Shown: piece after piece, positions 1,211-54,937 of the stretch
How the letters are laid out: each line of letters starts with the position of its first letter
Numbering within the stretch: the stretch's first letter is position 1
Assembly (NCBI GenBank): GCA_963969395.1
Contig: OZ017796.1
Coordinates: 43,948,243 to 44,012,242, forward strand
Length of the DNA: 64,000 bases
Reading direction: 5' to 3'
Source: Pseudoscleropodium purum
Taxonomy: Eukaryota; Streptophyta; Bryopsida; Hypnales; Brachytheciaceae
Position numbers and translations under genes: made by a program
The notes under the pieces: model-generated
What the model was told of the DNA's origin: nothing
What the model saw: only the letters and a program-made list of their open reading frames with translations
Databases searched by the model: none

Positions 1211-3628
1211 CTACTTTAAATTTTGAAAGAAAGTCAATATGGGTTTCAATGTAGCATCTTCTTTAATGGCCACCCTAAGGTGTTCCAAAATGTGGATATC
1301 CGTCCAAACTGGCTCCTCAATTGCAGCCAGCCGTAAGAGTGGTCGCCTTTCCTCATGTCTTCCTTCTATGATGTCTATCCTTCTTGAGAGAGTGTCCGCC
1401 CTTCCATTCAAGGATCCCGGTCGATGTTCAATTTCAAAATTAAACGCTGATAAAAATTCCGACCAACGTGCCTGTCGTCGATTTAGTTCCTTAGTTGTGA
1501 GAAAATATTCTAAATTTTTGTGATCCGAAATAACTTGAATCTGGTGCGGGGAACCTTCTAAATATACTCGCCAATCTTGGAATGCTAAAACTATACTTAG
1601 TAGTTCTTTATCATAAATGTCATAGTTGTGCTCAACTGGGGACATCTTCGAGCTTCGATAGGCACAAGGATGCCAATATCCATCATCCCCTCGTTGCGAG
1701 AGAATTCCCCCTGTTGCCATATCAGATGCATCTGTTTCAATCACAAAAGGTCTTTCAAAATTAGGGTGGAGTAATACCAGTGCTTGTAAGAAACGGGAAC
1801 GGAGTTCTTTAAATGCTATATCCGCTTGGGTCGTCCATTCAAACGGTTTATTTTTGCGAGTTAAAGTTGTAAGGGGCACTGCAATTCGAGAGTAATCACA
1901 AATAAAGCAACGGTAGAAATTTGCGAACCCCAGAAAAGACTGAATTTCCTTGACTATACTTAGAATGGGCCAATCTTTAATAGCTTGTACTTTATCTTGA
2001 CACATCTCCAAGCCCTTTGAGGAAACAATCATTCCCAAGAACTCCACAGACTCGCAATGGAATTGACACTTGGATTCTTTAGTATAAAGCCCGTGGTTCT
2101 TGAGTCATTTTAGCACCTCCCGCACCACTTGTATATGCTCCTCCAAAGTCTTTGAAAAAATCAAGATATCATCTAGATAGATCACCACTGAGATATCAAG
2201 GAGATCTCCAAAAATGCTCTGCTTGTGGGATTGAAAATGAGCTGGTGCATTAGTTAAACCAAAGGGCATCACAAGATATTCAAAAAGACCGTAGCGGGTT
2301 TTAAAAGCTGTCTTGTACTCATGTCCCAAAGCCATACGTATACGGTGATAGGCTTGTCTTATATCTAGCTTCGTGAATATGGTGGATCCCACCAATCTAT
2401 CGATAAGTTCGAGAATGAGCGGCAAGGGATAACGATTTTTCACAGTGACTTTGTTCAAATTACGGTAGTCTATACAAACCCTAATAGAACCGTCTTTTTT
2501 CTTAGTGAATACAATAGGGGCAGAAACCGGAGACTTTGACCACCTTATCCACCCTTTTCCTAGGTTCTCTTCTAAATACCTTCGAAGTTCTTCTAATTCC
2601 ACAGGAGACATCGGTCGTAGGTTGGTGTTTCGGGGTTCCTGTCCCTCTTTAAAATCAATTTTCATGTCCGAGGGACCGTGGTTGGGCAATTCATTGGAGG
2701 CCTGCTCGTTGAATGCCTCACGAAAGTCATGGTAATCGGTTGGAATCGATATTAACTCCGGTTCCATACACTCACAGATTTCTAAAGCATAAATCTCGGC
2801 ATCCTTCGCTGACAACTGAAATGCCGCTGCTGACACCATTGCATGCTTGGGCGCATCTAATGAGGATGTTCGCTTGGATCCACAAGGATCAGGAGGCACC
2901 AGCCCGATCCCTCCTCCTCCCCTTGGCCGCTGGCTGCTCTCGAATGGGGGGGCATCTGCTTGCAAGAGCCCCCCAAATCGCTTCTTGACATTGGCCACTT
3001 GCAAGCATGGCCCGTGTCTTCCGTATCCCCCCCAGCTATCGGCAGTCTCCGCAGCTTCCGGCTCCGTAGCCCCGGCGGCCGTAGCGAGGATCCCGTTGTC
3101 GATGGCCCAAGGCCAAATCCCTCTTGCCTCTAGGGAGTCCGTTGGTTGCTGGAAGCAATTTTCTTGACAAAATAAAGAATCAAACTGCACCTTCCTCCGA
3201 GACCAACGAATAGTGGGGTTGTGGCGTATGAGCCACGGGGTACCTAACACACAGGAATATCTTCCGGTGTTCATGATATCCACGGTCAGTGTTTCACAAT
3301 GCCCTTCTACTTTGAGCTGAATAGTAGCTTCCTGGGTGATGAGCCCAGAGTTTATTACTCTGCCGTCAATCACTCTGACTTCACGCGGGTGTTCTTTGGT
3401 CTCTACAGCCGCATTGCATTCTTGTGCAAAATGTGGATGAATAAAAATACCAGTGGCACCAGAATCCACCAATGCAAGAGCTGCCACACCATTCACCTCA
3501 ACATCCAAAGTTAGGTGCGCCCCTAGGTAAAGGGTGGCACGCAAGTAATGAGGGTCAGTTTCGGCTTCGAGTTCCAATGAAACTGGTGGATCCGGCGATT
3601 TTCGCTGAGTCCTCTGGCCCAACCCCAC
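1211..3628 (-). pseudogene. pol: gypsy pol: protease, reverse transcriptase and RNase H, broken
   Basis: This part of Pol cleaves the polyprotein and copies element RNA into DNA. From the N-terminus there is an aspartic protease with the active site Leu-Val-Asp-Ser-Gly-Ala-Thr. The reverse transcriptase has Lys-Leu-Asp-Ile-Arg-Gln-Ala-Tyr and the catalytic box Tyr-Leu-Asp-Asp. The RNase H has the Thr-Asp-Ala-Ser start and the Asp-His-Lys-Asn-Leu motif. A TGA at 2105-2107 splits the reverse transcriptase from RNase H; the frame continues unchanged to a TAG at 1211-1213. Both stops are one C-to-T change from Arg or Gln codons. A frame change separates this part from the zinc-knuckle part of gag. 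Confidence 0.95.
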
Positions 3629-3723
3629 CCATGACTGACTGAACCCTTGTTCTTTGGGGAAGCTCCCTTTCAGGATCGTCGTAGCTGCTTTTTGGACGGG
3701 GCCCGGGTATTGAACCTCTCCAC

Positions 3724-4604
3724 TTAGTCCCGGGCTTTGCCTTTTCCCGAGGAATCGCCTCCTTCTCCTTCTATGGATGCAATGGACAAAGGCTTAGAGG
3801 GGTTAGTGAAACACCGTGAGCGCACATGGCTGATTTCACCGCAGCCCCAACAGCGCCCCTGACGTTGATAGTCCAACCTTTCTGCAGCTATCTTGGCCAA
3901 CGCCGTACTCACTCGCATCGCCCAAGCTCCATCAACACTGGCCCTGACGTCCCATGGTTAGCAGAAGGTCTTCCAACTGCTTCTCGAGGTATAGAGGATG
4001 GAGTTCTAGAAACGAATGAATCTTGTTGAGGTTGTCGGGCCTGACGCCAGCCCTATAACCTTTCGTTGATTCGTGATGCCATCGCCATCCAATCTTGGAG
4101 TCTCCGGGGTTGGCTTTCTACGGTGGCCACGGAGTCCAAAACCTCGTCCTTCAACCCTCCCCTAAAACGCGCTATCAAACTAGGTTCATTCCAATTGAGT
4201 TGCGCCGCGAGCTCGTTGAAAGTGGAAATATAAGTTGCTACCGAGCCAGTCTGACGTAGTCTTCCAATTTTGTCTTCAGCATTACCTCATCTATCCAAGT
4301 CGCCATACACGGCAATGACCGAATCCTGGAAAGCGTTGTAATTGATTAATAATTCATGCTCATGTTCCTCATCAAGAGCTTGCAGTAAGGGCATGGCCCA
4401 ATTCTGAGCGGCCCTGGTCATGTAAGAAAGTGCATATGCCACCTTATCCGCATCAGAGTTGTAAGTTCGCGGTTTACCTCGGAAAACTAATCGTAGCTGC
4501 GCGAACCAACGATACACCTCATTCCCTTTCTTCCCAGAGAACTTCTCCAGATCGACTACTTTTGATTCTCGACCCTCAAAATCAGATTTGCGATGTCCTC
4601 CCAT
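3724..4604 (-). pseudogene. gag: gypsy gag polyprotein, broken
   Basis: Gag forms the virus-like particle and binds element RNA. The 4604-4287 part is a typical retrotransposon gag domain (Trp-Ala-Met-Pro region, then an Asn-Ala-Phe-Gln-Asp motif). A TGA at 4287-4289 interrupts it, and the same frame continues past it with gag-like sequence. A later part in another frame (3918-3724) has a zinc knuckle of the form Cys-X2-Cys-X4-His-X4-Cys (Cys-Trp-Gly-Cys ... His ... Cys). The frame change lies near 3950, after a second in-frame stop (TAG). Position directly upstream of the protease fits gag. Confidence 0.82.
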
Positions 4605-12187: not shown

Positions 12188-13145
12188 CTAGCTGCCGGGG
12201 GTGAAGTTGGTGGCGTACGCCCAAGCGTTGTTCGTCACGGGATCGGCCAAGTGGTCGCTCAAGTTCTCAATGGGACCCTTGCCAGTCACGATCGCCTGCA
12301 CGAAGAAGCCGAACATCGAAAACATAGCCAAGCGCCCGTTCTTGAGCTCCTTCACCTTCAACTCAGCGAACGCTTCGGGGTCGTCAGACAAGCCCAAGGG
12401 GTCGAATTGGCCGCCAGGGTAGATGGGGTCAGTCACATCGCCCAAAGGTCCTCCGGCTACTCGGTAGCCCTCCACGGCGCCCATCAGGATCACCTGAGAA
12501 GCCCAGATGGCCAAAATGCTCTGAGCGTGCACCAGGCTGGGGTTGCCCAAGTAGTCCAATCCCCCGCTCGCGAAGATCTGGGAACCGGCCTTGAACCAAA
12601 CCGCCTCGCCGAACTTGACGCCGTTCTTGGCCAACAGCTCGGGAGTGACGCACCCCAAAGCTCCCAACATGGCCCATCGCGCGTGGATGACCTCCAACTC
12701 CCTGTTTGCGGAGAACGTCTCGGGGTCGGCAGAAAGCCCCGCGGTGTCCCAACCGTAGTCTCCTGGGAACTCTCCGGTCAGGTAAGAAGGGGTGTTCTCG
12801 GAGAAGGGGCCCAACCACTTGGCGCGGTCAGCTCCGTACCTGCAAAAACATCAAGTCTCATCAGCATTTCTTTCCCGACAACCGTAGCCAACCCACATTG
12901 TCCCCAAAACAGCAATCTGCGATTGCCCGATGTCCATAACACCCTCCTCACCAGGCAATTGAAAACTACAGAGGAATACAATGTGATTGAGACCCCGCAA
13001 TCAGCACTCACCAGGGGCTTCCGCCGGCCTTGGCCATGGTGACGCGGGCCTTGCCTGCGCCCACCTGCCGGGAGAGCTCATTGACAGGCTTGAGCAGGGA
13101 CTGCCCAGCCAAGGCCGTAGAAGCGCAAGCAGTAGCGGAAGCCAT
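12188..13145 (-). CDS. LHCB: LHCII chlorophyll a/b-binding protein, gene A
   Basis: It encodes the main antenna protein of photosystem II, which binds chlorophylls a and b and carotenoids in the thylakoid membrane. Two exons: 13145-13012 (start ATG at 13143-13145) and 12839-12188 (stop TAG). The intron, 12840-13011, has GTGAGT and GCAG ends, and the splice completes a Trp codon. The 261-residue precursor has a transit peptide of about 37 residues ending Arg-Val-Thr-Met, and the trimer motif Trp-Tyr-Gly-Ala-Asp-Arg at 45-50. Helix B has Glu-Val-Ile-His-Ala-Arg near 94-99 and helix C has Glu168. Helix A has Glu209, Asn212 and Arg214 with Gln226 further on, and helix D has His241. All expected pigment ligands are present. 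The segment between the transit peptide and Trp45 is only seven residues, shorter than in seed plants. Confidence 0.97.
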
Positions 13146-17632: not shown

Positions 17633-18681
17633 CTATGGGCATGGGCATGGGCATGTACATGCCTGCGCTGCAACCTGTGTCACTGCTTCCCCGAGTCCTC
17701 CGACTGCTTCGACAGGTTTGAAGGAACTCCCGGGGGTGAAGTTGGTGGCGTACGACCAAGCGTTGTTGACCACGGGATCGGCCAAGTGGTCGCTCAAGTT
17801 CTCGATGGGGCCCTTGCCAGTCACGATCGCCTGCACGAAGAAACCGAACATCGAAAACATGGCCAGACGACCGTTCTTGAGCTCCTTCACCTTCAACTCA
17901 GCGAACGCTTCGGGGTCGTCAGCCAAGCCCAGGGGATCGAATTGGCCGCCAGGGTAGATGGGGTCAGTCACATCGCCCAATGGGCCTCCGGCTACTCGGT
18001 AGCCCTCAACGGCGCCCATCAAGATCACCTGAGAAGCCCAGATGGCCAAAATGCTCTGGGCGTGCACCAGACTGGGATTACCCAAGTAGTCCAATCCCCC
18101 GCTCGCGAAGATCTGGGAACCGGCCTTGAACCAAACCGCCTCGCCGAACTTGACGCCGTTCTTGGCCAACAGCTCGGGAGTCACACACCCCAAAGCTCCC
18201 AACATGGCCCATCGCGCGTGGATGACCTCCAACTCCCTGTTTGCGGAGAACGTCTCGGGGTCGGAAGAAAGTCCAGCGGTGTCCCAGCCATAGTCTCCCG
18301 GGTACTCTCCTTTCAGATATGAAGGCGTATCCCCGGAGAAGGGGCCCAACCATTTGTTGCGGTCAGCTCCGTACCTGCAAAAACACCAAATCTCATCAGC
18401 ACCTCTTCCACATCTACCGCAACCTCTCTTGAGTTCATTTTACCCAACCCGATCCGCGATCGCCCGATTCGAAAACATCCTCCAACACCAAAAAATTGCA
18501 AACTACACACGAGTATAACTTGAACACATTGCGCAAACATCACTTACCAGGGGCTTCCGCCGGCCTTGGCCATGGTGACGCGGGCCTTGCCTACGCCCAC
18601 CTGCTTGGAGAGCCCATTGACAGGCTTGAGCAGCGACTGCCCAGCCAGGGCCGTGGACGCGCAAGCGGTAGCAGCCGCCAT
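17633..18681 (-). CDS. LHCB: LHCII chlorophyll a/b-binding protein, gene B, with C-terminal extension
   Basis: Same role and layout as gene A. Exon 1 is 18681-18548 (ATG at 18679-18681), exon 2 is 18374-17633, and the 173-bp intron has GTAAGT and GCAG ends. The predicted precursor is 291 residues, longer than the roughly 265 usual for the family. The body up to Asn-Phe-Thr-Pro-Gly-Ser is normal with all pigment ligands. It is followed by about 30 extra residues ending Ala-Cys-Thr-Cys-Pro-Cys-Pro-Cys-Pro. The transit peptide and body differ from A and C at scattered positions, for example Gly for Glu at 23 and Lys for Thr in Ser-Tyr-Leu-Lys. The conserved upstream block is present, but the TATA position is degenerate. 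Splicing or an alternative end could hide the tail. Confidence 0.93.
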
Positions 18682-24341: not shown

Positions 24342-25259
24342 TTAACCCTAAAGTTCTATGACTAGTTCTGTTTTATCGAAAACACTTAGAAATTGTCATT
24401 TTCAGTACAAGTAAAAAAAATTTGAAAAAAAACTTTTTTCCGCATATGTAACTATAGAATCTTGTAGTACAATAAATTGAGAACATGTATTGCAAATTCC
24501 AAAAATTTCCACCACATGGATTGCTAAAAATAAGCATTCAAATTTGCTTAAATCATTTTTTTGGCCGTGCAAAAAGAAGAGCACCTACACTTCACATGCT
24601 CACATTTCTACAAAAAAATTGTTCAAAATGGTCATGCTTCTCTGAATTATTTTTCCTAGACAAGTTGGTCACATTCTTGAAATGATTAAGATCATTTGGA
24701 ATTTTACAACATATAGAAAAAAAATAGTAAATATGTAGTAGTAGATAATGATTCAAAATACTAGATTATTAAGAATTAAATTATGGAATTGAAAAATGCT
24801 AATTCTAGTAGTCAAAATGTTGTAATAAAAAATCTATATCCTATGATTTTATTTTTTTCTAAAAATATTGAAAATTGAAAAAGATAAAGTATTTCAAAAT
24901 TTATTTTAGAGTTGGAAATCCATAATTGCCTGCAAACAAAAAGTCCCAATAAATTTTGGCTCATTGATCAAAGTAGAGTATTTCAAAGCTTTATATGAAT
25001 ACAAAACTTTAGAAAACCAATCAAAAATTATTTATTTTAATCTATTCAATTTGCCTATTTATAAAAAACAAAAAACATATTAGGTTATAACTTTTGACTC
25101 CTATTTCTAAATGTCATAAAATTTAGTGCATATGAAAGATATTCCTTGTCCTCACCTTCTATTAAAATTTGGGTCAACAATGTGAAAATCTCTAATTACA
25201 TGCAATAGCCCAAATTCTTTTTGTAACGAGAAAATGTAGCTTGGTCCTTTACAAGTTAA
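24342..25259 (+). mobile_element. TTAA-flanked piggyBac-like non-autonomous element (copy 1)
   Basis: Starts TTAACCCTAAAG and ends with CTTGGTCCTTT then AAGTTAA. The interior matches copies 39006-39920 and, inverted, 43098-44043. TTAA at both ends plus CCC termini are hallmarks of piggyBac-type elements. The interior codes for nothing recognisable. Confidence 0.7.
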
Positions 25260-30654: not shown

Positions 30655-31916
30655 TGATTTTGATTGTGGCAAAGGCACGGGGTATAGTTGTAACCATTGA
30701 AAAATGGCATTTTTTAATTCCGTTACAAAATATACTTAACAAATTGATATTTTGAATCATTTCCTATTTCTTTTTCAACCCCTAAAGGACCATTGTCCCT
30801 TTTGGGGGACAAATGGGATTTTGGGCACATACCTATGAGCTGAATTTTTGTACAGATTTTTTTTAATTTTATATTGAAGATAGAAAAATGGATAAGCTTT
30901 GTGGAAATATAATTTATTTCAATCAATTTTTGGAAACAAAAGTTATGCCTAAATAAGCTCAAAATAAGGAAGAAGAGGTAACAGAAAAATATTTCAAGTT
31001 TTTTTTGTTTTTTTTAATTTTTGATTTTCAAAGACTTTATGTTTGTATACATGGAAAGCTTTGATTCATTCCATTTGGATCTTTTACAAGAAATTTATGA
31101 ACAATCTTGTTTTTTGAGCAATTAGAACATCTTGAAAAAACCCTTGTAGGATTAATTTTTTAATATAATTTTTACAATTTAAAAAAAAGTTCATTTGACT
31201 TAGTTTTCTTGCTTGACTCTCAAATCAAATCTCTACAATAAATATCTAAAGCTCAAAGTTTTTAGTGCAAAAAAATAAAGTTAAAAAGGTTCAAAGTCAA
31301 ATAATCTAGTCATGCAATGTGTTGAAAAACATGTTTTATTAACTTTAAAAGAAAATATCTTGCACTTTGTGTAGTCAAAAATTTTGAATTTTTTTTTTAT
31401 GCATTCTTATACTAGTTAGGTGTAAGATCCTACGGTTAGATGTGTAAAAAAATAATTTTCCAATTTTTACTACTTGCTATAGAAATGGCAGTTTTGAGCA
31501 TTTTTCGCAAAAAAAAAAAGGCATGGGTCCTTTAGAGGTTAATACGTTGTATAATTTTAAATTATCTAAAAAATTTTAAGCATGTAACGAACTTGCCTTC
31601 AAGAATGAATTCAAAGAAGCACCACCAATGTGGACATTTTTTCATTTGAATGTGACCTTGTGAAGTGTAGCTACCTTCTTTTTTTGTGATGACAAAAAAA
31701 AAGATTTTTGTGAATTTAAATGCAAAAATGTTGTAATCCAGTGGAAATTTTTGAAATTTTTTCCACAACTTCTTAAACCAATGTCCTATAAGCTCCTATA
31801 TAGTTACATGTATCCTAAAATAAATTTTTTTCCTATTGAAAATGTGGTTCTTTTATAGGAAATGGCAATGTTAGAATGTTTTCAATCAAAACATAGTCAA
31901 AATTTTTATGGATTAA
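30655..31916 (-). mobile_element. TTAA element (copy 4), interrupted by another TTAA element
   Basis: The parts at 30655-30774 and 31543-31916 align end to end with 43560-44043. The break falls exactly at 30775-31542. The right end has decayed (GGATTAA in place of GGGGTTAA). Confidence 0.65.
30775..31542 (+). mobile_element. TTAA-flanked piggyBac-like element, subfamily B (nested copy)
   Basis: Begins TCAACCCCTAAAGGACCATT (one base from TTAA) and ends GGTCCTTTAGAGGTTAA. The interior, with TTTTGGGGGACAAATGG, matches 40039-40963. Its insertion splits copy 4. Confidence 0.75.
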
Positions 31917-34987: not shown

Positions 34988-35946
34988 CTAGCTGCCGGGG
35001 GTGAAGTTGGTGGCGTATGCCCAGGCGTTATTGGCCACGGGGTCAGCCAAGTGGTCGCTCAAGTTCTCGATGGGGCCCTTCCCAGTCACGATCGCCTGCA
35101 CGAAGAAACCGAACATCGAAAACATAGCCAAACGCCCGTTCTTGAGCTCTTTCACCTTCAACTCAGCGAACGCTTCGGGGTCGTCAGACAAGCCCAAGGG
35201 GTCGAATTGGCCGCCAGGGTAGATGGGGTCAGTCACATCTCCCAAAGGTCCTCCAGCTACTCGGTAGCCCTCAACGGCGCCCATCAAGATCACCTGAGAA
35301 GCCCAGATGGCCAAAATGCTCTGAGCGTGCACCAGGCTGGGGTTGCCCAAGTAGTCCAAACCCCCGCTTGCGAAGATCTGGGAACCGGCCTTGAACCAAA
35401 CCGCCTCGCCGAACTTGACGCCGTTCTTGGCCAACAGCTCGGGAGTCACGCACCCCAAAGCTCCCAACATGGCCCATCGCGCGTGGATGACCTCCAATTC
35501 CCTGTTTGCGGAGAACGTCTCGGGGTCAGCGGAAAGCCCCGCGGTGTCCCAACCGTAGTCTCCTGGGAACTCTCCGGTCAGGTAAGAAGGGGTGTTCTCG
35601 GAGAAGGGGCCCAACCACTTGGCGCGGTCAGCTCCGTACCTGCAAAAACATCAAGTCTCATCAGCATTTCTTTCCCCGACAACCGTAGCCAACCCACATT
35701 GTCCCCAAAACAGCAATCCGCGATTGCCCGATGTCCATAACACCCTCCTCACCAGGCAATTGAAAACTACAGATGAATACAATGTGATTGAGACCCCGCA
35801 ACCAGTACTCACCAGGGGCTTCCGCCGGCCTTGGCCATGGTGACGCGGGCCTTGCCTGCGCCCACCTGCCGGGAGAGCTCATTGACAGGCTTGAGCAGGG
35901 ACTGCCCAGCCAAGGCCGTAGAAGCGCAAGCGGTAGCGGCCGCCAT
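34988..35946 (-). CDS. LHCB: LHCII chlorophyll a/b-binding protein, gene C
   Basis: Exon 1 is 35946-35813 (ATG at 35944-35946), exon 2 is 35639-34988 (stop TAG), and the 173-bp intron lies between them. The 261-residue precursor differs from gene A at only two residues: Ala for Ser at position 3 and Ala for Thr in Asp-Pro-Val-Ala-Asn-Asn near the C-terminus. The intron and part of the 3' region are also nearly identical to gene A, although gene B lies between the two. All pigment-binding residues and the Trp-Tyr-Gly-Ala-Asp-Arg trimer motif are intact. It has a good TATA box and the conserved upstream block. Confidence 0.97.
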
Positions 35947-38979: not shown

Positions 38980-39005
38980 TAGACACCCAAAGAGAAAGGG
39001 GTGTT

Positions 39006-39920
39006 TTAACCCCTAAAGGTCGGAGACTATGTTTTCACCATAAACACTCCCAAATTGCCATTTTTGATACAAGCACCAAATTTTAGATGAAAAACATTTT
39101 TGGACACTTGAAACTGTAGGATCTTGTAGTACACTAGTTTGAAAAGATGTGAAAAAATTTCAAAATTTTTCACCATGTAAATTGCAAGATATTAACCTTT
39201 AAAGTGACAAAAATCATTTTTTTGGCCCTGTGAAAATATAGGTAGTTGCACTGCACAAGGTCACATTTCTATGAAAAAATGCCCAAAATGGTGGTTACTC
39301 TTTATATTCATTTTTCAAGACAAGTTGGCTACATGCTTGAAAAAATTTAGATCATTTGGAATTGCACAATATATAGAAAAAAATAGTAAATAGAAAGAAG
39401 TACAAAATGATCTAAAGCATTAAATTTTTAAGAATTTAATTATTAAATTAAAAAAATTCCGATTTCAACAGCAGTGTTGTAGTAATAAACAATATAAATC
39501 ATTTTTTTCCAAAAAAATATTAAAAATTGAATTAAATAAAGGACTCCAAAGTTTATTTTCAATTTTTCAAGTAGAGAATGCAAATTGGAACACCTCATAA
39601 CTTTCATTTCATAACTCAGTGGAAGGATTCAAAAGCTTTCTACGTATATAAAAATCTAGAAAACCAATTTCGAATTTTCATTTTTGAAATAAGTAATTTT
39701 TTAAGAAATTTTTGGGCCAGTCAAACATTGAAAATTACATATCATGCAATAACTTTTGAACCACGTAGTCAAAAGTTATGAACATTGATGGGCCTTAAAG
39801 CTACTCTTTGAATACATTTTGTGTGAAAATTTCAAAGAAAAAAATAGAAATTCCGTTTAAATTGAGCTACTCAAGATCACTATATTGTCAAAAAATGCAG
39901 CTTGGTCTCTTAGGGGTTCA
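39006..39920 (+). mobile_element. TTAA-flanked piggyBac-like element (copy 2)
   Basis: Starts TTAACCCCTAAAGG and ends CTCTTAGGGGTTCA, where TTCA is one base from TTAA. The interior matches copies 24342-25259 and 43098-44043. It sits in the left end of the family F MITE. Confidence 0.82.
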
Positions 39921-43097: not shown

Positions 43098-44043
43098 TTA
43101 ACCTCTAAAAGACCACGGTGTGTTTTTTGGCATCATAACTTTTTTAGGCAAGTGCATCTGTGCATATGAGCGGAGATTTTCATATTTTTGGCTCAAATCT
43201 TAATACAAGGTGTGGACAAGGAATATCTTTCACGTGCACTAAATTTCAAGCCATTTGGAAATATGAGTAAAAAATTATGGCCTAATATTTAATTTATTTT
43301 TCAACTCGTGCAGTCCAAGCAAATCACAAAAAATTCAATTTTCCAAAAATAAAAATTTGAAATTAATTTTCTAGATTTGTATATACATAGAAAGCTTTTA
43401 ATCATTCCATTTTGATCAATGAATTAAAAGTTATGAGGTGTTTTAGTTTGAAGGCAATTAGGATTATCTATTCCAAAATAAACTTTGAGGTTCTTTATTG
43501 AATTCAATTTTCAATATTTTTGAAAAATTAAAAGAATTAAAAAACATATATATGATGATCATTGTTTATTACAACATTATAACCACTAGGATTGGCATTT
43601 TTCAATTCCATAACTAAATTATTAACAATTTAGTATTTTGATTCATTCTCTACTTCTTTCTACTTACTATTTTTTTCCTATATGATGTACAATTTCAAAT
43701 GATCTGAAATTTTTCAAGCATGTAGTCAACTTGCCTTGAAAAATTAATCCAAAGAGTTGCAACCATTTTGGACATTTTTTCATACAAATGTGACCCTATG
43801 AAGTGTAGCTGCCTAATTTTTTGCAGGGCCAAAAAAGGTTTTTTGTCAATTCAAACGCTAATATCTTGCAATCTACATGGGGAAAAATTCTGAAATTTTT
43901 TCTACGTCTTCCAAAATGATCATACTACAAGATCCTATGGTTGGATGTGTCCAAAAATGTTAATTTTTTTTTATACTTGTCCTAAAAATGGCAGTTTTGG
44001 AGTATTTTTGATGAAAACATAGTCAAAGAACTCTAGGGGTTAA
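43098..44043 (-). mobile_element. TTAA-flanked piggyBac-like element (copy 3)
   Basis: TTAACCTCTAAAAGACC at the left and CTCTAGGGGTTAA at the right, 946 bp in all. The interior is the reverse complement of copies 1 and 2. Confidence 0.82.
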
Positions 44044-44618: not shown

Positions 44619-44626
44619 AAAAATAA
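44619..44626. repeat. Left target-site duplication of the large hAT element
   Basis: AAAAATAA, directly followed by CAGGGT. The same eight bases directly follow the right end at 54399. Being A-rich it is weaker evidence alone than a mixed 8-mer, but its placement is exact on both sides. Confidence 0.85.
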
Positions 44627-44765
44627 CAGGGTGGACGAATCTCTACGTCCGCTCCAAAATAGCGTCCGTTTTCCGGACGTCCGGACGCACAGACGCTAGC
44701 GGACGTAGCGTCCCTTCCACCGTCAGAAGGCGGACGGGCACAACGGACGGACGGGGCGGCTTAGA
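44627..44765. repeat. Left subterminal GC-rich repeat cluster
   Basis: CAGGGTGGACGAATCTCTAC, then many GGACG/CGTCC words including GGACGTCCGGACGC. About 130 bases align with the left end of the MITE at 54645. Confidence 0.85.
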
Positions 44766-45273
44766 AAATCCGTTTTGGGTTTTTTGTTTTGATTGTTTTC
44801 ACCAATGAGAGATTGAGAGTGAAGTCATTTGGATTTTGATTTTTCTTATATTGCAATTGCGATTCAATAGAGTTGTATATCACTATTTATATAAAAGCTA
44901 AAATATGAAATATATTTTTAATTTTTTTTGTTGAATTTCATTTTGATTTAAAAACAAAATCACTTTAAAATCCAGCAAGATGTATATCATCAATAAACAA
45001 ACAATTTTATAATAAAATGATTGAAGAAACGATTGTCATTTGTCAACATGAGCTCCATATATCATGAGCAACTAAACAATCAAACATCTAAATTTACATC
45101 TCCACAATTCCTATGGACGCCAATCCACAGCTCCTCTAACCTCAGCCCCACTACTCTCTCTTGCAGCTCTCCGTTCAAAATCTTCATTATTAGAGTCATC
45201 TTCATTGTTGGAGTCCTCTTCATTGTTGGAATCAAGTATCGTTGTCTCCTTCAAGTCTTCTCTCGAAGTAGGT

Positions 45274-45672
45274 TTATTCCCTTCTTTCAAATTTAATTTT
45301 TTTTTTTACTTTGACAAAACGATTAAAGGCTTTTTGAATAGGAACCTTTCTTTTCTTTCTATTTGACAAAGTAGCAACATTTTCATCAAGAGGGGTCCTA
45401 TTCTTCACTGGAGAAATAGCAAAAGGTTGCATTTCTCTTTTCGCTTTCACCTTACTCGATTCTTGAACCATCAATCTCGATGTAGGGTCGACATGTCCAT
45501 GAACGATTATCTTTACTTTGACTTTTTTTTGAAGTAATAGAGTGCCGTTTGTTGATTTGATGGGTTCTTGCGCCATTCCTTTTCCTAAAATGCGATCACG
45601 CAAAGATGCCAATGGCATCCAATCACTATCCGTATCATTTAGGCTTGTAGGTGATGACGCTACTTTCCATAG
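45274..45672 (-). pseudogene. Basic C-terminal segment after the transposase frame
   Basis: A minus-strand frame open from about 45672 to 45274 encodes an unrecognised protein part rich in Lys and Arg (runs like Lys-Val-Lys-Lys-Lys-Ile-Lys). It is in another frame from the transposase. TTTTTTACAG just before it would be a usable 3' splice site, so it may be the last exon of the transposase gene or the result of a frameshift in the A/T run near 45690. Confidence 0.35.
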
Positions 45673-45673
45673 A

Positions 45674-48484
45674 TTACCGCCTGTAAAAATTTTTTTTGGA
45701 AATGTTCACTAGGCGTTTTCCATATCCAAAGCTCTGAGAATCATCCAATCTGACCAATCGTGTGCTAACAGACTTCAACGGTATTGGTGGAAGAGCACTA
45801 GATCTCGGTACTTCAAAAATTGACTTCATTGGCTCTTTTCTTTTATCACTCTTCACAATTGCCAAATTTGTGACTGCCATCCCAACTGAATCACTATTTT
45901 TCTGTACCGCAATATTTGGTTCCCCTTCATCACCACTATTGTTGCCCACATCTTTTGGAACGTCCACCTCCATGACCGCATCTTCTCTTCTGTCGTTTCC
46001 TTGCACTACATTTAATGCCACAGATGGAGATTGAGAAATTAAAACTTCTTCATTTCTCCCATCATCACCAATAGCATTTTCATTGATTTTCACCTTTTTG
46101 GCAATAGCGTTTGCCTTTTCCGATAGAATGTTTTCGCTATTCAAGAATCCCATTCCATTGCAATATGCAGTTAAAGAAGGTAGATTCTCCTCTCCCCCTA
46201 CATTGTCCTTGTCTTCATAAAAGGTATATGCATCGTTTGCATTGTCGAGAACGACATCCTTGCGGTTTAGATGATAATCATGCGCATCATTCACCAAATC
46301 GAGAAAGCCTTCCATAACGTCTTCATCTCCCTATGCTGTTGTACGATTGAAGTCATCTCCGCCATCTACAACTGAAAGGGCCCTTTCCAAATCCTCGTCA
46401 TCATCGTCATCATCGTCTTCTAATGTCGGCCTATCTGAATCCTCTGATTTCATCGGATCCACATTATCATTATACCATTTTTTTTCATCTTTTTCCTTTG
46501 ATGCGTTTAATACTTTAGAATTGGTATACACGTACACAAAATCCGTTGCTCTCTTCGGCTTCAATTTATTTCGAGATTTGTTGTGAACAAAAGAATAGTT
46601 GCTTCAATTCCGTTCACATGAAGATGATGACACCGGTTGAGCCAATATCCTCTTCGCTAATGGAGCTATAAACTTGCCACATGCACCTTCAAAATCCCAC
46701 CAAGCATGTGCGGACAACATTTGATCTCCCGGATTCAACATATTGTGGAATGGAAGTTCCTTGTGTCGAAAAGCCACAAATTCCTTCACCACTGCTGTAT
46801 ATTCATCCGGTTTACATATTCTCTCCAAAACTTTCTTACATCCTGACATTGCATCTGCGTCATCCGCTAGCTCTTTGTCATGAAGAAGGTATGGATTCAA
46901 AAGAGCTGCGGCTGATTGGAGATCGTTGTCCACCATTCTTCTTCGAGCATAAAAAGACTGTACCAATGGAATTGCAAGTTCTTCTAGTAAACAAAATGGT
47001 CGACTTTGTAATCTGTTCACATGCTTCTCTAACTTCCTCATGATATGCAACACCTTCCCCATGCATGGTGATTTTGAATCCAAATCGCGAAGTGCACATA
47101 TGATTGGTTCAACCATCTCCACAGAATTGATGGACCAATTCCAAAAATGGTCATCAAGAACAATTTTCTTCACCGCTAAAGCCAAGTCTTTTGGTTGGAC
47201 TTTGGCTCCACGTTTCTTCTTGAAAGTATGTACCTACTCAACCCATTGCGGATCTACCACCGTTTATTCCAATGCTCCTCTTAATTTTGTCAAACGCTCC
47301 ATCATGATAAATGTAGAGGCGAACCTTGTATCCCCAAGCATCAAAAGACCAAGATTTGGCGAATACTTTTGCAATAGAGCTAGCGGCATATGTCTCTTCC
47401 TGATAAATTTAGCTACAAGAACTCCTTTATCCAATTTGGAAGCAATCCATTTCTATGCAGCCCAATCCTTCAACAACAAATTCAATGCATGTACCACGCA
47501 CCCTTGGTAAAAAATATGAGGATATTTTGCAAATATTACATCCCATGCGAACGGATTCATGGGAGCATTATCTGTAGTTATTAACACGACGTTCTTGGAC
47601 CCCACTTGTTCAATGAACTTTTCCAACACAGCTGCCAAGTACTCCGAATTTTTTTCACAACCACTTGTATCCACAAATCCAAGAAATTCTTTACCTGCAG
47701 ATGATACAAGCATGGCATTGATGAGAGGTCGATTAGTCACTGAGCTCCATCCATCAATGGACAATGTTGCTCCAAATTTTCGAATGCTATCTTCGGTCCG
47801 TGCATTCAACTGTGTCTAAATGTTGGTCTTCGCTTCATTCAACAATTTGTACCGAAGGTCGTGGTATGAGGGAGGAATGTATGGCCTACCAAATGCAGCC
47901 GTTTTCTTCACTGCTTCTTTAAAAGCTGGATTTCGAGCCACGGAAAATGGTATGTTCGTCGAATAAAAAAAATTTGCCCACACTGAATGTAATTAGCATC
48001 TATAATCTTCTTCAAACCCATTCACTAAGCTGCCTTGCCTCTGAGGCCTAGAACTTGATGCCCTCAGGGTTTCACGTTCACCAGAAGCTTCCGTACTCAA
48101 AGTCATTTCAGTTGTGGCACATACCATTGATACCAATTCTTTGGATGCTGGACAAGAGTCTTCGTGGTCAGAATGCAACACAGCCTTTTCGGCCGAAAAC
48201 TCTTAGACATCTGAAGGGCCAGGGTTGCCATCCACATTGTCCATTATAACGCGTTTTGGAAAAACTCCTTCGCAATGCCAAAATAAATCTCGAACTGCCA
48301 TTGATAATCGTAGACAAAGGCTCACCCTTTTATTACGTACACCTTTAGGCCCAAAATAGCCTAAGTGGCTGAACATACGGCTGAGCCTCCTTGACATGAT
48401 CGCTTTGCAAAGCCTACATTTTACTTTACCACCCTCTTGTACACTATACCAAGGAGAAAAATCCCCCGTCGGTTTGGCCACCAT
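45674..48484 (-). pseudogene. hAT-family transposase, eight in-frame stops and no frameshift
   Basis: hAT transposases cut and rejoin element DNA in the nucleus. From an ATG at 48482-48484 one frame runs 937 codons. It has a BED-like zinc finger (Cys-Arg-Leu-Cys ... His, codons ~32-55) and a DUF659-type core with Ser-Ile-Asp-Gly-Trp-Ser-Ser. Then come Thr-Thr-Asp-Asn-Ala, Gln-Gly-Cys-Val-Val-His-Ala, and a hAT dimerisation domain with Ser-Ser-Cys-Glu-Arg-Asn. An Asp-rich, acidic tail follows. Stops fall at 48203, 47993, 47816, 47453, 47264, 47234, 46604 and 46331 (lower coordinate of each). Sequence on both sides of each stop stays hAT-like, so all are internal. The TGA at 46604 falls where the family has Trp. 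Confidence 0.93.
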
Positions 48485-48731
48485 ATTGACAAGTGTATAT
48501 TTTACCTCAATTTCAAAAGAAACCAATAAAATGTTTTAAATTTGAAACCCACAACGTGACAATGTATACAATATCAATGAAATTAGTCACACAAAGCTTT
48601 GAAAATCAAAGCCCCCCCGTCCACCGAACTATGCATTACCAAGCAAGAGACGCAAAAAATTGAAGCTCATAGCCCTTGGAAATCTTAGCGTTCGGTTTTT
48701 CGAGAGTGAATACAAAAGCTTCTCTTCTAAC

Positions 48732-48740
48732 ATTTATAGT
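48732..48740 (-). promoter_or_regulatory. TATA box of the hAT transposase gene
   Basis: CTATAAATG on the minus strand, about 250 bases upstream of the ATG and just downstream (in transcription sense) of the GC-rich cluster. Confidence 0.5.
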
Positions 48741-48784
48741 CCCCTCCAGAAAATTAAAGGTTCATTTTTGGGGTTTACATTCAA

Positions 48785-48960
48785 AAACAAGCAACGGCCC
48801 GGACGAGGCTGAAGCGGACGGGCGGACGAGCGGACAGGCCGGATGGGGCGGGCGGACGGGGCGGTCGGACGGGACTGTCCGCACTGTCCGCCTTCCGACG
48901 CCGTCCGCGCTTTGGACACGCCGACCGCCCCACTTAAACACTAACCGCCGCCGACGTCTG
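48785..48960. repeat. GC-rich GTCCG cluster upstream of the transposase
   Basis: Dense CCGTCCGCCCG-like words, read along the direction of transposase transcription. The word type is the same as in the subterminal clusters. No CAGGG terminus lies here, so it is not an element end. Confidence 0.8.
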
Positions 48961-50229
48961 CCCAGCTGTCCATTGGAGCATCCTATGAAGCCGATATTAC
49001 TCAAAAAGAGCGGTAACATTTCTAAAAAACAACAGCCTGATAATCACTGCTAAATGAGGATCAATGTAATTGATTTATCATTTTATTTAAAAAAAAATGT
49101 AAACCCTAAACCCTATAACCTAATTACCCTAAACCTTTTCTTTTCTCCCCTAAATTGTTTTACGAATGAGGGGAATGTGGTTAAGTTGAATATGTTTGGA
49201 TTATTTACTTATATTATCCTTCTAAATAGGTTTTGAGAAGATCTGAAGATGGTGGGGATTTTTTTAAAGTTCATTAGGAAATCAAATGTTTTGCAGAAAT
49301 AATCAATTCCTTTTTCATCATAAGCAAATTAAATTTTAAAAAAAGGCCCCAATACATAATTAGAATAACAGTTTAATGGATTTCAACCTCATGATATTTA
49401 ATGAAAGGTTGTGATTTCTAATTAGAAGTGCATCACGATCTTCAAATGAACATCGAGTCTTTCATATTTTTTAATGAAATTTTGATTAGATTTGAAAACA
49501 AAGAAAAAGAATCAATGTTTTAACTTTCAAATCATGTATGGCTATATTTTTCCTTAAAAACATAGAAAAATTCGTTACCTGAGTTGGTCGAGTAGAATAC
49601 ATTATACACTTATACATGTGCTATATTTATTTTGAAGGGTAATTCCAATATTCTTATTTCAGATGTTTTTAAATATTAATTTAAAAAAAGAGGGTTCATT
49701 GTTTAAAGATCTAAAAAATTGACAAACATAATTTCTATTATAAATAGGAATTGAATTCGGAATTCGAATTTTGAAATGATTCAAATGAACAAGATATTGA
49801 TAATAAAATATTTCTTCGTTTGAGTTTTCAAAATGAATTTAGGAAACAATTGCAAACTTTTGAACTTAGGTATATGGTATTGTTTTTGGTTTGTACTTTG
49901 TAGAGTATAATACTTCAATTTTAATCCTAAATAAATGAAAAAACTCCACATGAATGAAATGTTTCTATGTATTGCACAAAGATTTCTACCCATTACTATG
50001 ATAATTAAATACATTGTTACATTTCATAAAATATTCTACATAGAAAGAAAAAATCATTTCAGTTTTCAATTATGATAAATGATGTCTTCTACTCTTTCTG
50101 TTATATGTTCATTTTGTATAACGTGTACATTGTACAATTTTTGAGAGCAGGGTAGTTCATTTTTGACTCTCATTGAAATAGAAAATATATTTGGATTTGG
50201 ATTTTGAAATCATTATGTATTCTACGGTC

Positions 50230-50405
50230 TTGCAAGAATGCATCTTGCTCCTTCCTTTGAATCCTTTTGATATTTTCTTTTTTTTCCTTTGCTTTCTCGT
50301 AAGGCTCTTGTTCTCTTGTTTTCTTCATTTGACCAGCCTATTTGGCTTGGCTCTTAGTTTTTTGGTTTTTTTAATGCAATGGTTTACGCATATGTTATAA
50401 AAAAT
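50230..50405 (+). mobile_element. LINE 3' end fragment
   Basis: The part TTTGGCTTGG ... TTTTTTAATGCAATGG, followed by an A-rich end, matches the 3' end of the minus-strand LINE relic at 8327-8500. Confidence 0.45.
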
Positions 50406-50879
50406 ATATATTATTTATTTAAAATTAATATATTGATGAACAAACGCATAAAGGCATTGAATGCTTTCACATTTAAAGTTATAAATCTATCATAAATCAC
50501 TCTTGTAAATTTGAATGATTGAATCGAAAATTTGAAAATGTAATTACAAGAGCTTTCAATTCAATCAATTGTATAAATCATAAATGTTGAAATGCAACTC
50601 GTATGAGTTTAGCATTTATGAAGATTAATTCATGCCATCCACATGCAATTTTCCAATTTAATAAAATGCAATTGAGTACTTCAATTTCTTTCCCTTCAAT
50701 TCTCCAAGTAACATTCACTTCATATCTTTCTCTATTTGTTTATCTATTTTTTGGGAATAAATGAAGAAACCATTTTTGTCTATATTTGAACATGCACTCT
50801 TATTTGATTGATGAAGAATATATTTATGAAATATATATTCATTGATTTGTTCATGTTGATTTATCTAATATATTTTATG

Positions 50880-50884
<5 letters not shown>

Positions 50885-50916
<32 letters not shown>
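50885..50916. repeat. TA microsatellite
   Basis: About 15 TA units. Confidence 0.97.
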
Positions 50917-50918
<2 letters not shown>

Positions 50919-51149
50919 TTAAAGGAGTATGGAAGACAAGATTGACAGATTGTGTTCAAATGTTGTTGATTTTGAAATGATTTAGTACTATATTATTTAT
51001 AAGAATATTATAATAGTATTATGTTATAATATTCCTAAAATAATTGCAACAAATATTAAAATACATGCTAAGTTAGGTTTGTTAGCCTACCAATTGTTCA
51101 TTAATAGACATAATTGAGTAGCCCCCTTAAATAAAACACTCAATATCTA

Positions 51150-51327
51150 ATATTTTACAATCCAAATGGTGGATTTGTCTAAAAATTTTTCCACATTTTT
51201 TCCAACTAATTTACTACAAGATCCTACGGTTACATATGCCCAAAAGTATTTTTCTTCCAAAACTTGGTATTTGCACTACTAATGGCAGTTTTGAAGTGTT
51301 TTTAGTGAAAAGAACTTTAGGGGTTAA
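51150..51327 (-). repeat. TTAA-element fragment, one end
   Basis: The last 180 bases match the right end of 43098-44043 (ATGGCAGTTTTGAAGTGTTT ... CTTTAGGGGTTAA). The rest of the element is missing. Confidence 0.7.
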
Positions 51328-51749
51328 ACATCTATACCGTTAGATTTTGAAAAAAGAACAATTTGCTTCATTGGGGATAACTATAAGTCCATGTTCTTTT
51401 TCGATAGCCAAAACACACTTGCAAAGACTTGGACATTTAGTGGTTTACTAAGTGATTAGACATCAACTAATTCAATTTAATAGTAGAATTTTTATTCAAC
51501 TACCTTCTTACAATTGCTTTATACACAATGCAACGTGAATATTTGGGTACATATATTAAACGTCGCAATCCTTTCGTGAATTTTTGCACATTTTAGCTCA
51601 TATCTTTGTACAAAAATATCATTTACCAAGAATTCATAAATTTGGTCATAAAGGAAGGCTACCTTTTTTAATTTCAAGTTTTACATTGAATGAATGAAAA
51701 GTTAGTTGAACTATACAGTGCCATGAAGACCTCTGTTTATTGTGCAAAA

Positions 51750-52160
51750 TATGGACGTCGGAGCGCTTTAGGGTCAAACCGCCCCGTCCTCCCTCGTACC
51801 CGTCCGCCCAGACCCCGTTCGCTCCGATACCTGTCCGTCGTCCGTCCCAATATCCGTCTACCTCGTCCTCCGTCCACCCTGTCCGTCTGATCCGGTGTCC
51901 GCCCTGTCCGCCCCGATACCCGTCCGCCCTGTCCGTCCGATCTAGCGTCCGCCCTGTCCACCCCGTTACCCGTCCGCCCCGTTACGGCCGATGCATCCAC
52001 CCCCTCCGGACTGTCCGATCGGGCAGACGTCAGATTTGTCCACCCGTGGCTATCCGATCGGGCGGATGGGGCTCTAGGGTTTCGGGGAGGCGGACGGCCG
52101 ATCCGTCCGCCACCCCCGGCCCGTTCGATCGGGAGGACGATTTAGGGCCGCCCGCATTGT
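51750..52160. repeat. GC-rich GTCCG cluster upstream of the kinase-like gene
   Basis: The longest cluster, with many CCGTCCGCCC words in the sense of transcription and a few GATCGGGCGGA-type words at its downstream end. It mirrors the cluster upstream of the transposase. Confidence 0.85.
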
Positions 52161-52351
52161 CACTTTTGTTTTGCCCCTTGTGAATGCAAGGTGGAGCGGA
52201 GAGCTTGGTGGTTCATCCTTCATTGGCTCCTTTCCGAGGCAAGGCAAGAGTGGTTTATTGGGGCCCCCTTATTGTCAATTTTTTTAACATTTGTGCGTAG
52301 AATTCACATTTAAATTAGAAAATTTCATCTATATCAGTTTCATTTGTCACG

Positions 52352-53845
52352 ATGACAAAGAGGAAGAAGAAGGTTGCGAAGCTTAAACATGGAGAGGGAC
52401 CATCAAACTTGGAGGTAGCTCGCCAAAGTCCTTTGGAAGAATGCAAAAAATTCATGATTGAGCGCATCATTCAATTTTATGAATCGGAAACAACATTGTC
52501 TTTAAACAATAAGTACATCAGATATCAAGAGGAGTGCGTGTCTAAATTCAAGGTAGACATGACACAGATGTTGTTAGATGCATTGAATGTGGCGAAGTGG
52601 CATGACGAAATGCATAAAACGTACTTCACCAAATGTTTGGAGAACAAGGTTCATGACGCTTTGTGGAATTCCAAAGTCATTTTGGTTAAATATGGCAAGG
52701 AATATCGACCCAATGACGCCCAGTTTGAAGAAGCGATTTTGAAAGCGGACTTGTTTAGGGGGCGATGTGCTTCATTCACCAAAAAGCACAATCAAGTTGG
52801 TTCAACTGGTTGGTAGAAAAGCAATGATGGAGTTGCTGAAGCGAAAAGGACCAAACGGCACCTCGTAGCACTTCCAAATACAGTACGCGTGATTGCTGTT
52901 GATGATAGAACGATAAGAGGTGGATATGCAACGATTCGAAAAGTCCGTATTGAAGGATTTCCTAGAGTACTTCCTTATTGGGAGTTTGCGGCAAAGAAAT
53001 CCATTCACCACCAAACTCGACCCGATCTTGCAAAGTTAAAACATCAAAACGAATCAATGGCTGTTCGAATTCTACACGCGGGTGTGATACGGTTTGCTGC
53101 GGTGCACGGAACGACGTGTGAAGATTATGTGTATTGGTGGAATGGTGGAACTCTTTGACAAATGTTGAATATGGATAAGGACTTTCCAGACAACATTCAA
53201 ATTCGTTTGATGTATACGAATCCAACCGAAGAGGAGGCTATAAAATTTCACCGTTTAGGGCAATATCAGAAGAAGTGCACAGAGCTGACATAGGCCTTTA
53301 TGCATATAATGTATGCAGTGCATCTTGCTGGACAGTTGCACAATGATCTTTCTCCGGACAACATCTTGTTGCATTTTTCAGAGGATGAGTCACGTGTGTA
53401 TATTGGAGTTTGCGATTGGGGCATGACCACTTTAGCTTCTCAGCCAATGAAGTCTTTGTACACATTTACATCAGCAGATGAGATGAAACAGACTTTGCAG
53501 AGGAGATGGTGGGTGGATCCACGTATTGCGTATTTGCATAAAACAGGTGCAGATGTGGAAGTCATTCCGATGTATTCACGTAAGTCGGAAGAGTATGCCA
53601 TTCGAAAAATTGCTCGGCGGATGAATGAAAACAACATATCAGAGGCGTATTTCAACGTGCTACTTAAAACACCTAGTGCGACACAATTTGCCTTTCATGA
53701 CTTTGCAAAAGTGTTTTATGCTTATTTAAAGCGCATTTCTTCGAAGACTGACAATGAAAATACTAGTTTGGCCCATGTGATTACGCGATTTTCTAATACA
53801 TATCGTTGGCCGATGCCAGATGAACATTTTTGCCATTTATATTAG
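52352..53845 (+). pseudogene. Protein-kinase-like cargo gene, three in-frame stops and no frameshift
   Basis: One frame of 498 codons from the ATG at 52352. The first ~180 codons are a Lys-rich start and helical region I do not recognise. Then comes a kinase fold: a Gly-rich loop (Arg-Gly-Gly-Tyr-Ala-Thr, ~189), a candidate ATP-binding Lys (Ala-Ala-Lys-Lys, ~213-216) and a hinge with Gly-Gly-Thr-Leu (~268). The catalytic loop is His-Asn-Asp-Leu-Ser-Pro-Asp-Asn (Asp332), then Cys-Asp-Trp-Gly in place of Asp-Phe-Gly (Asp355). Arg-Trp-Trp-Val-Asp-Pro-Arg stands at the Ala-Pro-Glu position. Stops: TAG 52814, TGA 53156, TAG 53291. The substrate is unknown. It lies convergent with the right end of the hAT element. 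Confidence 0.85.
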
Positions 53846-54284
53846 ATTGGTAGTACAGAAGTAGTAGTTGAATAGGTTATATAGGCATTAAAAATTAGTT
53901 TAAAAATATAGAGTTGGAATGAAAAAAATTATATGTGCAATTAGCCAAATGTGCACAATGTATGGTATTCTATATTAAATTCAATATATTTTGTCCATAT
54001 TGATTATGTTTGTATTTGTGTTGATCTTGATTTTTTAAATAGTATATATATATATTTGCAGTCACAAACTTTTTTAGTTTGCCTTCTGAAAATGAATTGG
54101 AATTTTTTCATAGTTTCAAGACTATCATGGACTCATGGTCAAACTTTATAATCTTTCAACTTATAAGAGACATTGTTTTAATGACAAATCGCGAACCATT
54201 GCACTTTATTTAACATTTAATTGTTTAAAGATTAAGGGAGTGATTGCGGGGCAGTTTGGGTAGGGCGGTCGGGGGAAATAGGGC
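53846..54284. other. 3' flank of the kinase-like gene
   Basis: AT-rich, with a short TA run at 54043-54054. No gene seen. Confidence 0.5.
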
Positions 54285-54398
54285 CGTCAAAGCGGATGGG
54301 GCGGTCCCGGCGGACGCTGTGTTCACGGGGACCGTGAATGTCAGCGGACGCTGCGGACACAGCGTCCGCGTCCGCGTCCGGACGTCGTGTCAACCCTG
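54285..54398. repeat. Right subterminal GC-rich repeat cluster and terminus
   Basis: GTGAATGTCAGCGGACGCTG and the following ACACAGCGTCCGCGTCCG match the right end of the MITE at 54645-54887. It ends TGTCAACCCTG, the complement of CAGGGTTGACA. Confidence 0.88.
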
Positions 54399-54406
54399 AA
54401 AAATAA
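54399..54406. repeat. Right target-site duplication of the large hAT element
   Basis: AAAAATAA, identical to 44619-44626. Confidence 0.85.
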
Positions 54407-54636: not shown

Positions 54637-54644
54637 AATGTGGA

Positions 54645-54887
54645 CAGGGTTGACGAATCTCTACGTTCGCCCTAAAATAGCGTCTGTAACCCGGACATCC
54701 GGACACCCGGATGCCAGCGGACACAGTGTCCCTCCCGCCATCGGAAGGCGGACGGACGGGACGGACGGGCAGGGGCAGACGGGGGCGGACGGGGCAAGGC
54801 GGACGGTGTCCGCGAATGTCAGCGGACGCTGCGGACACAGCGTTCGCGTCCAGACGTCCTGGACGTCCGACCGTCCTATCAATCCTA
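54645..54887. mobile_element. 243-bp hAT MITE, deletion derivative of the same family
   Basis: The left end CAGGGTTGACGAATCTCTAC and next 110 bases match 44627-44765; the right ~100 bases match 54300-54398. The right terminus has decayed to TCAATCCTA. AATGTGGA lies directly before (54637-54644) and after (54888-54895). No coding capacity, so it would need a transposase supplied from elsewhere. Confidence 0.95.
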
Positions 54888-54937
54888 AATGTGGAGGATA
54901 TAAATAATACTCTTTCCATCCCAAAATGATCTTGTCA

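Follow-up and report, generated by a model that had tools for sequence, protein, structure and literature searches.

Ac, Tam3 and Tip100 are kin of the plant hAT superfamily of the DUF659/BED type, and VANDAL elements are Mutator-like. Where plant DNA transposons have extra genes, these are, to our knowledge, mostly fragments that were captured or anti-silencing factors that bind DNA. In Arabidopsis VANDAL, the extra protein VANC binds DNA and removes silent marks, according to the available part of PMC10398659. Two fungal systems are described in the accessible sections of PMC12730594. IS3EU transposons carry a transposase and an alpha-kinase in opposite orientation with a TET/JBP gene between them, and have 6-bp duplications and TAYGG ends. 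Puccinia hAT7 carries a TET/JBP dioxygenase inside complete ends with a 7-bp duplication, and in three named families the dioxygenase gene has the same orientation as the transposase gene.

Here we describe a hAT insertion in the window (the whole 64-kb stretch of DNA that was analysed) that contains both a transposase gene and a protein-kinase gene. Judged from its sequence, the element is a hAT by its duplication, its ends and its transposase, and the predicted kinase is what is new. Like the hAT superfamily, it has an 8-bp duplication, short CAGGG-type inverted ends, repeats near the ends, and DUF659 and hAT dimerisation domains. Unlike plant members of the DUF659/BED type, its second gene is a protein kinase and the relatives of its transposase possess a long acidic tail. 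As far as the available text of PMC12730594 describes these systems, the gene plan is nearest to that of fungal IS3EU with its alpha-kinase: both are DNA transposons with oppositely oriented transposase and kinase genes. In contrast to IS3EU, however, this locus has an 8-bp duplication, CAGGG ends, an ordinary protein-kinase fold and a plant host, and identity with IS3EU is ruled out by the 8-bp duplication and CAGGG ends as against 6 bp and TAYGG (PMC12730594, same sections). Puccinia hAT7 is alike in being a hAT transposon with a second enzyme gene within complete ends, but there the enzyme is a dioxygenase (in three named families in the same orientation as the transposase), the duplication is 7 bp and the host is a fungus, whereas here we find a kinase, opposite orientation, 8 bp and a plant (PMC12730594, as far as the part on hAT7 goes). 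The likeness to VANDAL/VANC is in outline only: both elements possess an extra gene and have tandem repeats in their non-coding parts, but that of our element encodes a kinase predicted from sequence (PMC10398659, available part). In the open-licence literature, which includes few subscription papers and no preprints, we found no report of a kinase-carrying hAT, and the fungal IS3EU alpha-kinase was the nearest case.

The features of the locus are as follows.

44619-44626, direct reading: left target-site duplication, AAAAATAA
44627-54398: hAT insertion, 9772 bp (about 9.8 kb), with ends CAGGGTGGAC and GTCAACCCTG and exact AAAAATAA duplications
44627-44766, plus strand: left end, GC-rich, 9 CGGACG/CGTCCG hexamers
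45111-48484, minus strand: hAT transposase gene, disabled, with DUF659 and hAT dimerisation domains and an acidic tail with SSGAEV
48780-49000: GC-rich cluster upstream of the transposase gene, 6 hexamers
49001-51739: AT-rich spacer of about 2.7 kb, no gene recognised, dispersed repeats at 51148-51328 and 50319-50404
51740-52180: GC-rich cluster upstream of the kinase gene, 8 hexamers
52202-52351, plus strand: kinase leader, spanned by a tblastn match of relative P0011 and, by eye, similar in another frame to the N-terminal extension of relative P0010
52352-53845, plus strand: protein-kinase gene, a single 497-codon frame interrupted by 3 in-frame stops, encoding an N-terminal helical domain and then a kinase domain
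54228-54398, plus strand: right end, GC-rich, 6 hexamers
54399-54406: right target-site duplication, AAAAATAA, abutting the right terminus
54645-54887, plus strand: non-autonomous relative of 243 bp that has both end types and lies between AATGTGGA copies at 54637-54644 and 54888-54895

Ends of the element and a small relative next door

A sequence-only reading of this DNA had described matching termini and perfect 8-bp direct duplications against both of them. This description is exact: CAGGGTGGAC begins at 44627, GTCAACCCTG stops at 54398, and AAAAATAA lies immediately outside both termini. As terminal inverted repeats of the CAGGG type, CAGGGTGGAC and CAGGGTTGAC differ by 1 mismatch in 10. 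An exact 8-bp target-site duplication, which is the hAT length, was found at the element (AAAAATAA) and at its 243-bp relative (AATGTGGA). We scanned the window for 10-bp inverted ends (at most 1 mismatch), 200 to 15000 bp apart, that are flanked by an exact 8-bp duplication. Fifteen pairs were obtained, and the only one with a hAT-like YARRR start was the 9772-bp element. Twenty first-order Markov sequences gave 0-6 inverted-end pairs each as compared with 15 in the window, and none of their pairs had a CAGGG start. The surplus of the window over the Markov sequences may come from AT-rich repeats. Because only 1 of the 15 pairs has a hAT-like start and CAGGG starts are absent from the 20 Markov sequences, chance is a poor account of the element's ends and duplications. 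The exact 8-bp duplication at the outer ends shows that the whole 9.8-kb unit was inserted as one.

The 243-bp relative begins 246 bp past the large element and has the identical orientation. Its left end shows 79% identity to that of the element over 131 nt; the left-end and right-end scores are 76.5 and 50.5, respectively, and neither was reached in 300 shuffles. Because the relative has both end types together with its own 8-bp duplication, the left and right ends of the 9.8-kb unit form a natural pair. Small non-autonomous relatives usually derive from a larger element by deletion, which also argues that these ends belong together.

The terminal motifs were sought throughout the 64-kb window with up to 3 mismatches. 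The 21-base left motif was found at two places, the element and the 243-bp relative, and was otherwise absent; the 30-base right motif likewise occurred at these two places. Neither motif occurred in 100 shuffles. Since the motifs are present at two places alone, the transposase and kinase genes each have no complete recognisable end pair of their own here. This bears on an alternative that the sequence-only reading had raised, two hAT copies with trapped host DNA that were moved by the outer ends. In fuller form, the two hATs would be related, one carrying the transposase and the other, at a distance of about 2.7 kb, the kinase; the outer ends would have moved both together with the intervening DNA, and the inner ends would have decayed. 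At the inner boundaries that this arrangement requires, the terminal motifs are absent (at most 3 mismatches), and the scan for inverted ends with an exact 8-bp duplication gave no pair ending at either of them.

The transposase and kinase genes

The two genes lie inside the ends and are transcribed divergently, the transposase on the minus strand (from 48484 to about 45111) and the kinase on the plus strand (52352-53845). Thus, the earlier placement of divergent genes near opposite ends was correct. The assignment of the first gene to hAT transposases was also borne out by Pfam, in which DUF659 (5.4e-30) and the hAT dimerisation domain (2.2e-07) both exceeded their curated cut-offs. For the BED-like N-terminus, the scores of 15.0 bits (long frame) and 18.8 bits (first open piece) lay below the cut-off of 20.6. 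The gene runs in one frame up to codon 936, with 8 in-frame stops on the way, and then changes frame twice, near 45.7 and 45.3 kb; the tail that follows (SSGAEV...WRP) resembles the tails of relatives. D244 and D305, which do not vary across 16 aligned rows, are present here, as is the E of the CERN motif; the three residues are candidates for the catalytic D, D and E. We found 35 transposase relatives, of up to 1123 residues and with a long acidic tail. The eight with organism names are all from seed plants and at most 34% identical, and Ceratodon was not among these named matches. Among the 20 closest relatives (P0060-P0079), 16 end in or near a SSGAEVKGDSDY-like motif (SSGAEVKGD or similar) after a long acidic part.

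The kinase-fold claim stood as well, through a relative rather than through Pfam: the window copy matched Pkinase at 6.7e-05 with 22.9 bits, below the curated cut-off of 31.7, whereas the predicted model of an intact relative with 68% identity has a protein-kinase fold. Among five kinase relatives, P0057 and P0058 passed the Pkinase cut-off and three failed. The window kinase possesses K215, E234, H330 N331 D332, N337 and D355, at positions that are invariant or nearly so in a 28-row alignment (the window copy plus 27 of the 57 first-search matches). HND and DWG take the places of HRD and DFG in this kinase, the conserved catalytic residues of which are present. The frame is full-length and no intron is visible. 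The three stops fall at columns where the relatives have W (25/27), R (25/27) and W (27/27). If the ancestral codons were TGG, CGA and TGG, the stops would be C-to-T or G-to-A changes. Stop density is alike in the two genes (3/497 codons in the kinase, 8/936 in the transposase; Fisher p 0.76), and both genes are dead in the window copy.

A profile search, which scores solely proteins that have short exact words in common, gave 60 kinase relatives at E ≤1e-3 among 4981 candidates. Those with named organisms are two from Ceratodon (moss) and one from a bacterial MAG. The latter, P0003, is assigned to a Bacilli bacterium MAG. It shares 69% identity with the plant kinase and probably represents plant DNA that was binned with bacteria. 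The cluster of Ceratodon P0035 contains 126 sequences, which are database entries at 90% identity and not genome copies. When the longest contig per cluster was considered, 10 of the 60 kinase clusters had one of more than 9 kb, and none of these equalled in size any contig listed for the 35 transposases. In the kinase tree (35 of 58 rows), the window copy groups with P0002 and P0003, and in the transposase tree (17 of 36 rows) it groups with P0060 and P0070, both with full support. Its branch is longer than those of its neighbours in the transposase tree (0.24 versus 0.13 and 0.18) and in the kinase tree (0.30 versus 0.13 and 0.12), as expected for dead genes. The two trees give similar pictures.

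The sequence-only reading had left it open whether the kinase travels as captured cargo or as a second resident gene. Because 60 relatives were found and the catalytic residues are kept, the kinase does not look freshly captured, and we consider it probable that it is a long-term resident of this element lineage. Plant DNA transposons capture gene pieces and kinases are a large plant family, so that a normal plant hAT could have recently taken up a host kinase gene as a passenger in Pack-type fashion. However, the search, scored on shared short words, gave a narrow family of 60 proteins alone, sequence matches in the PDB were weak, the element's hexamers occur in the region upstream of the kinase, and the gene, at 497 codons in a full-length frame with no intron visible, is not a fragment. 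A recent capture is therefore improbable, and residence fits better. We regard it as very improbable that the kinase came from a different mobile element or a host multi-gene family by nested insertion. The 126-sequence cluster, which may mean that the kinase is repeated in Ceratodon, and the lack of Ceratodon among the organisms named for the 35 transposase matches would fit such an origin; around the kinase, however, no other element's ends or target duplication were seen, and the hexamers that lie upstream of it are the ones present in the hAT ends.

Hexamer clusters and the spacer

Of the 36 CGGACG/CGTCCG hexamers in the window, the left and right ends contain 9 and 6, the upstream regions of the transposase and kinase genes 6 and 8, respectively, and the 243-bp relative 7. 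In the other 53,739 bases of the window there are none. Those 53,739 bases have 9 instances of the shorter GTCCG/CGGAC, and another 5 lie in the 8,799 element bases that separate the clusters. Because the hexamers are confined to the ends, the upstream regions of the genes and the relative, the kinase upstream region bears the element's own signature. In both inner clusters, the hexamers are 0.24-0.55 kb upstream of the start codon, a promoter-like position. We read the clusters as predicted binding sites common to ends and promoters.

These clusters are also where the hypothesis of two adjacent hATs finds its evidence, since 48.8-49.0 and 51.74-52.18 kb are the places where inner ends would be. 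We made 10 comparisons of the inner clusters with 300 shuffles each: three exceeded all shuffles, two were reached by 1/300 and five by 8 to 89. The transposase-side cluster resembles the right end (score 25.0, 0/300 shuffles) in the orientation of a decayed inner right end, and such an end would also give this likeness. The other two paired the kinase-side cluster with the left end in reverse (23.0, 0/300) and the two inner clusters with each other, also in reverse (29.0, 0/300). In contrast, the kinase-side cluster is unremarkable against the left end in the orientation that two adjacent hATs predict (12/300 shuffles). In favour of two adjacent hATs, a TAGGG word is present at 51769. The promoter position of the hexamers in both clusters argues against former ends.

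The spacer contains dispersed repeats, as trapped host DNA would. One repeat recurs at 5 other places in the window with 69-73% identity, and another piece of the spacer has a 77% match at one place. Nested insertion explains these repeats as well as trapped DNA does. The first repeat is old, measures up to about 190 bp around ACTACAAGATCCTA, and lies at 51148-51328 (in the spacer), 39005-39194, 43858-44043, 24364-24529, 31424-31516 and 31741-31833. As a whole, an origin from two neighbouring hATs is unlikely: the spacer repeats and the likeness of the transposase-side cluster to the right end speak for it, but no inner terminal motif does. Because the duplication is exact, the ends are paired in the 243-bp relative, inner terminal motifs are absent, and the hexamers lie at the ends and upstream of both genes, it is very likely that the 9.8-kb unit is a single hAT insertion with the kinase inside.

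A possible role of the kinase

Other hAT transposases bind subterminal repeats. In the same way, the transposase of this element would bind the CGGACG-type repeats at the ends and cut and paste the element. The two promoters may be under the joint control of the transposase, or of a host factor, through the same repeats upstream of each gene. The kinase would be a resident second gene maintained by selection, its N-terminal helical domain may recruit a partner, and the substrate of its kinase domain may be either the transposase or a host protein of silencing or repair. That the kinase acts on transposition or silencing and is not a mere passenger is a possibility to which we give somewhat less than even chances. 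The wider proposal is tentative and rather doubtful: a land-plant hAT lineage would have its own kinase as a second essential gene, the transposase-binding repeats would double as operators upstream of both genes, and phosphorylation would control the transposase or host silencing. Taken overall, we think it reasonably likely that the element is a single dead member of a hAT transposon family with two genes, from a green plant that is most likely a moss, and that the kinase is its resident second gene as proposed above. If true, a hAT with a conserved kinase inside would influence its own transposase or its host in a way that is new for transposons, and could explain moss kinase genes that are possibly now annotated as host genes, such as the Ceratodon cluster of 126 database sequences.

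Elsewhere in the window, chlorophyll a/b-binding proteins (PF00504) are encoded by three closely similar open frames that have no interruption within the domain, at 12188-12850, 17633-18439 and 34988-35650 (minus strand). These three genes mark the host as a green plant, and the two kinase relatives from Ceratodon suggest a moss. At 1211-3793, the minus strand has parts of a retroelement, among them protease, reverse transcriptase and RNase H domains.
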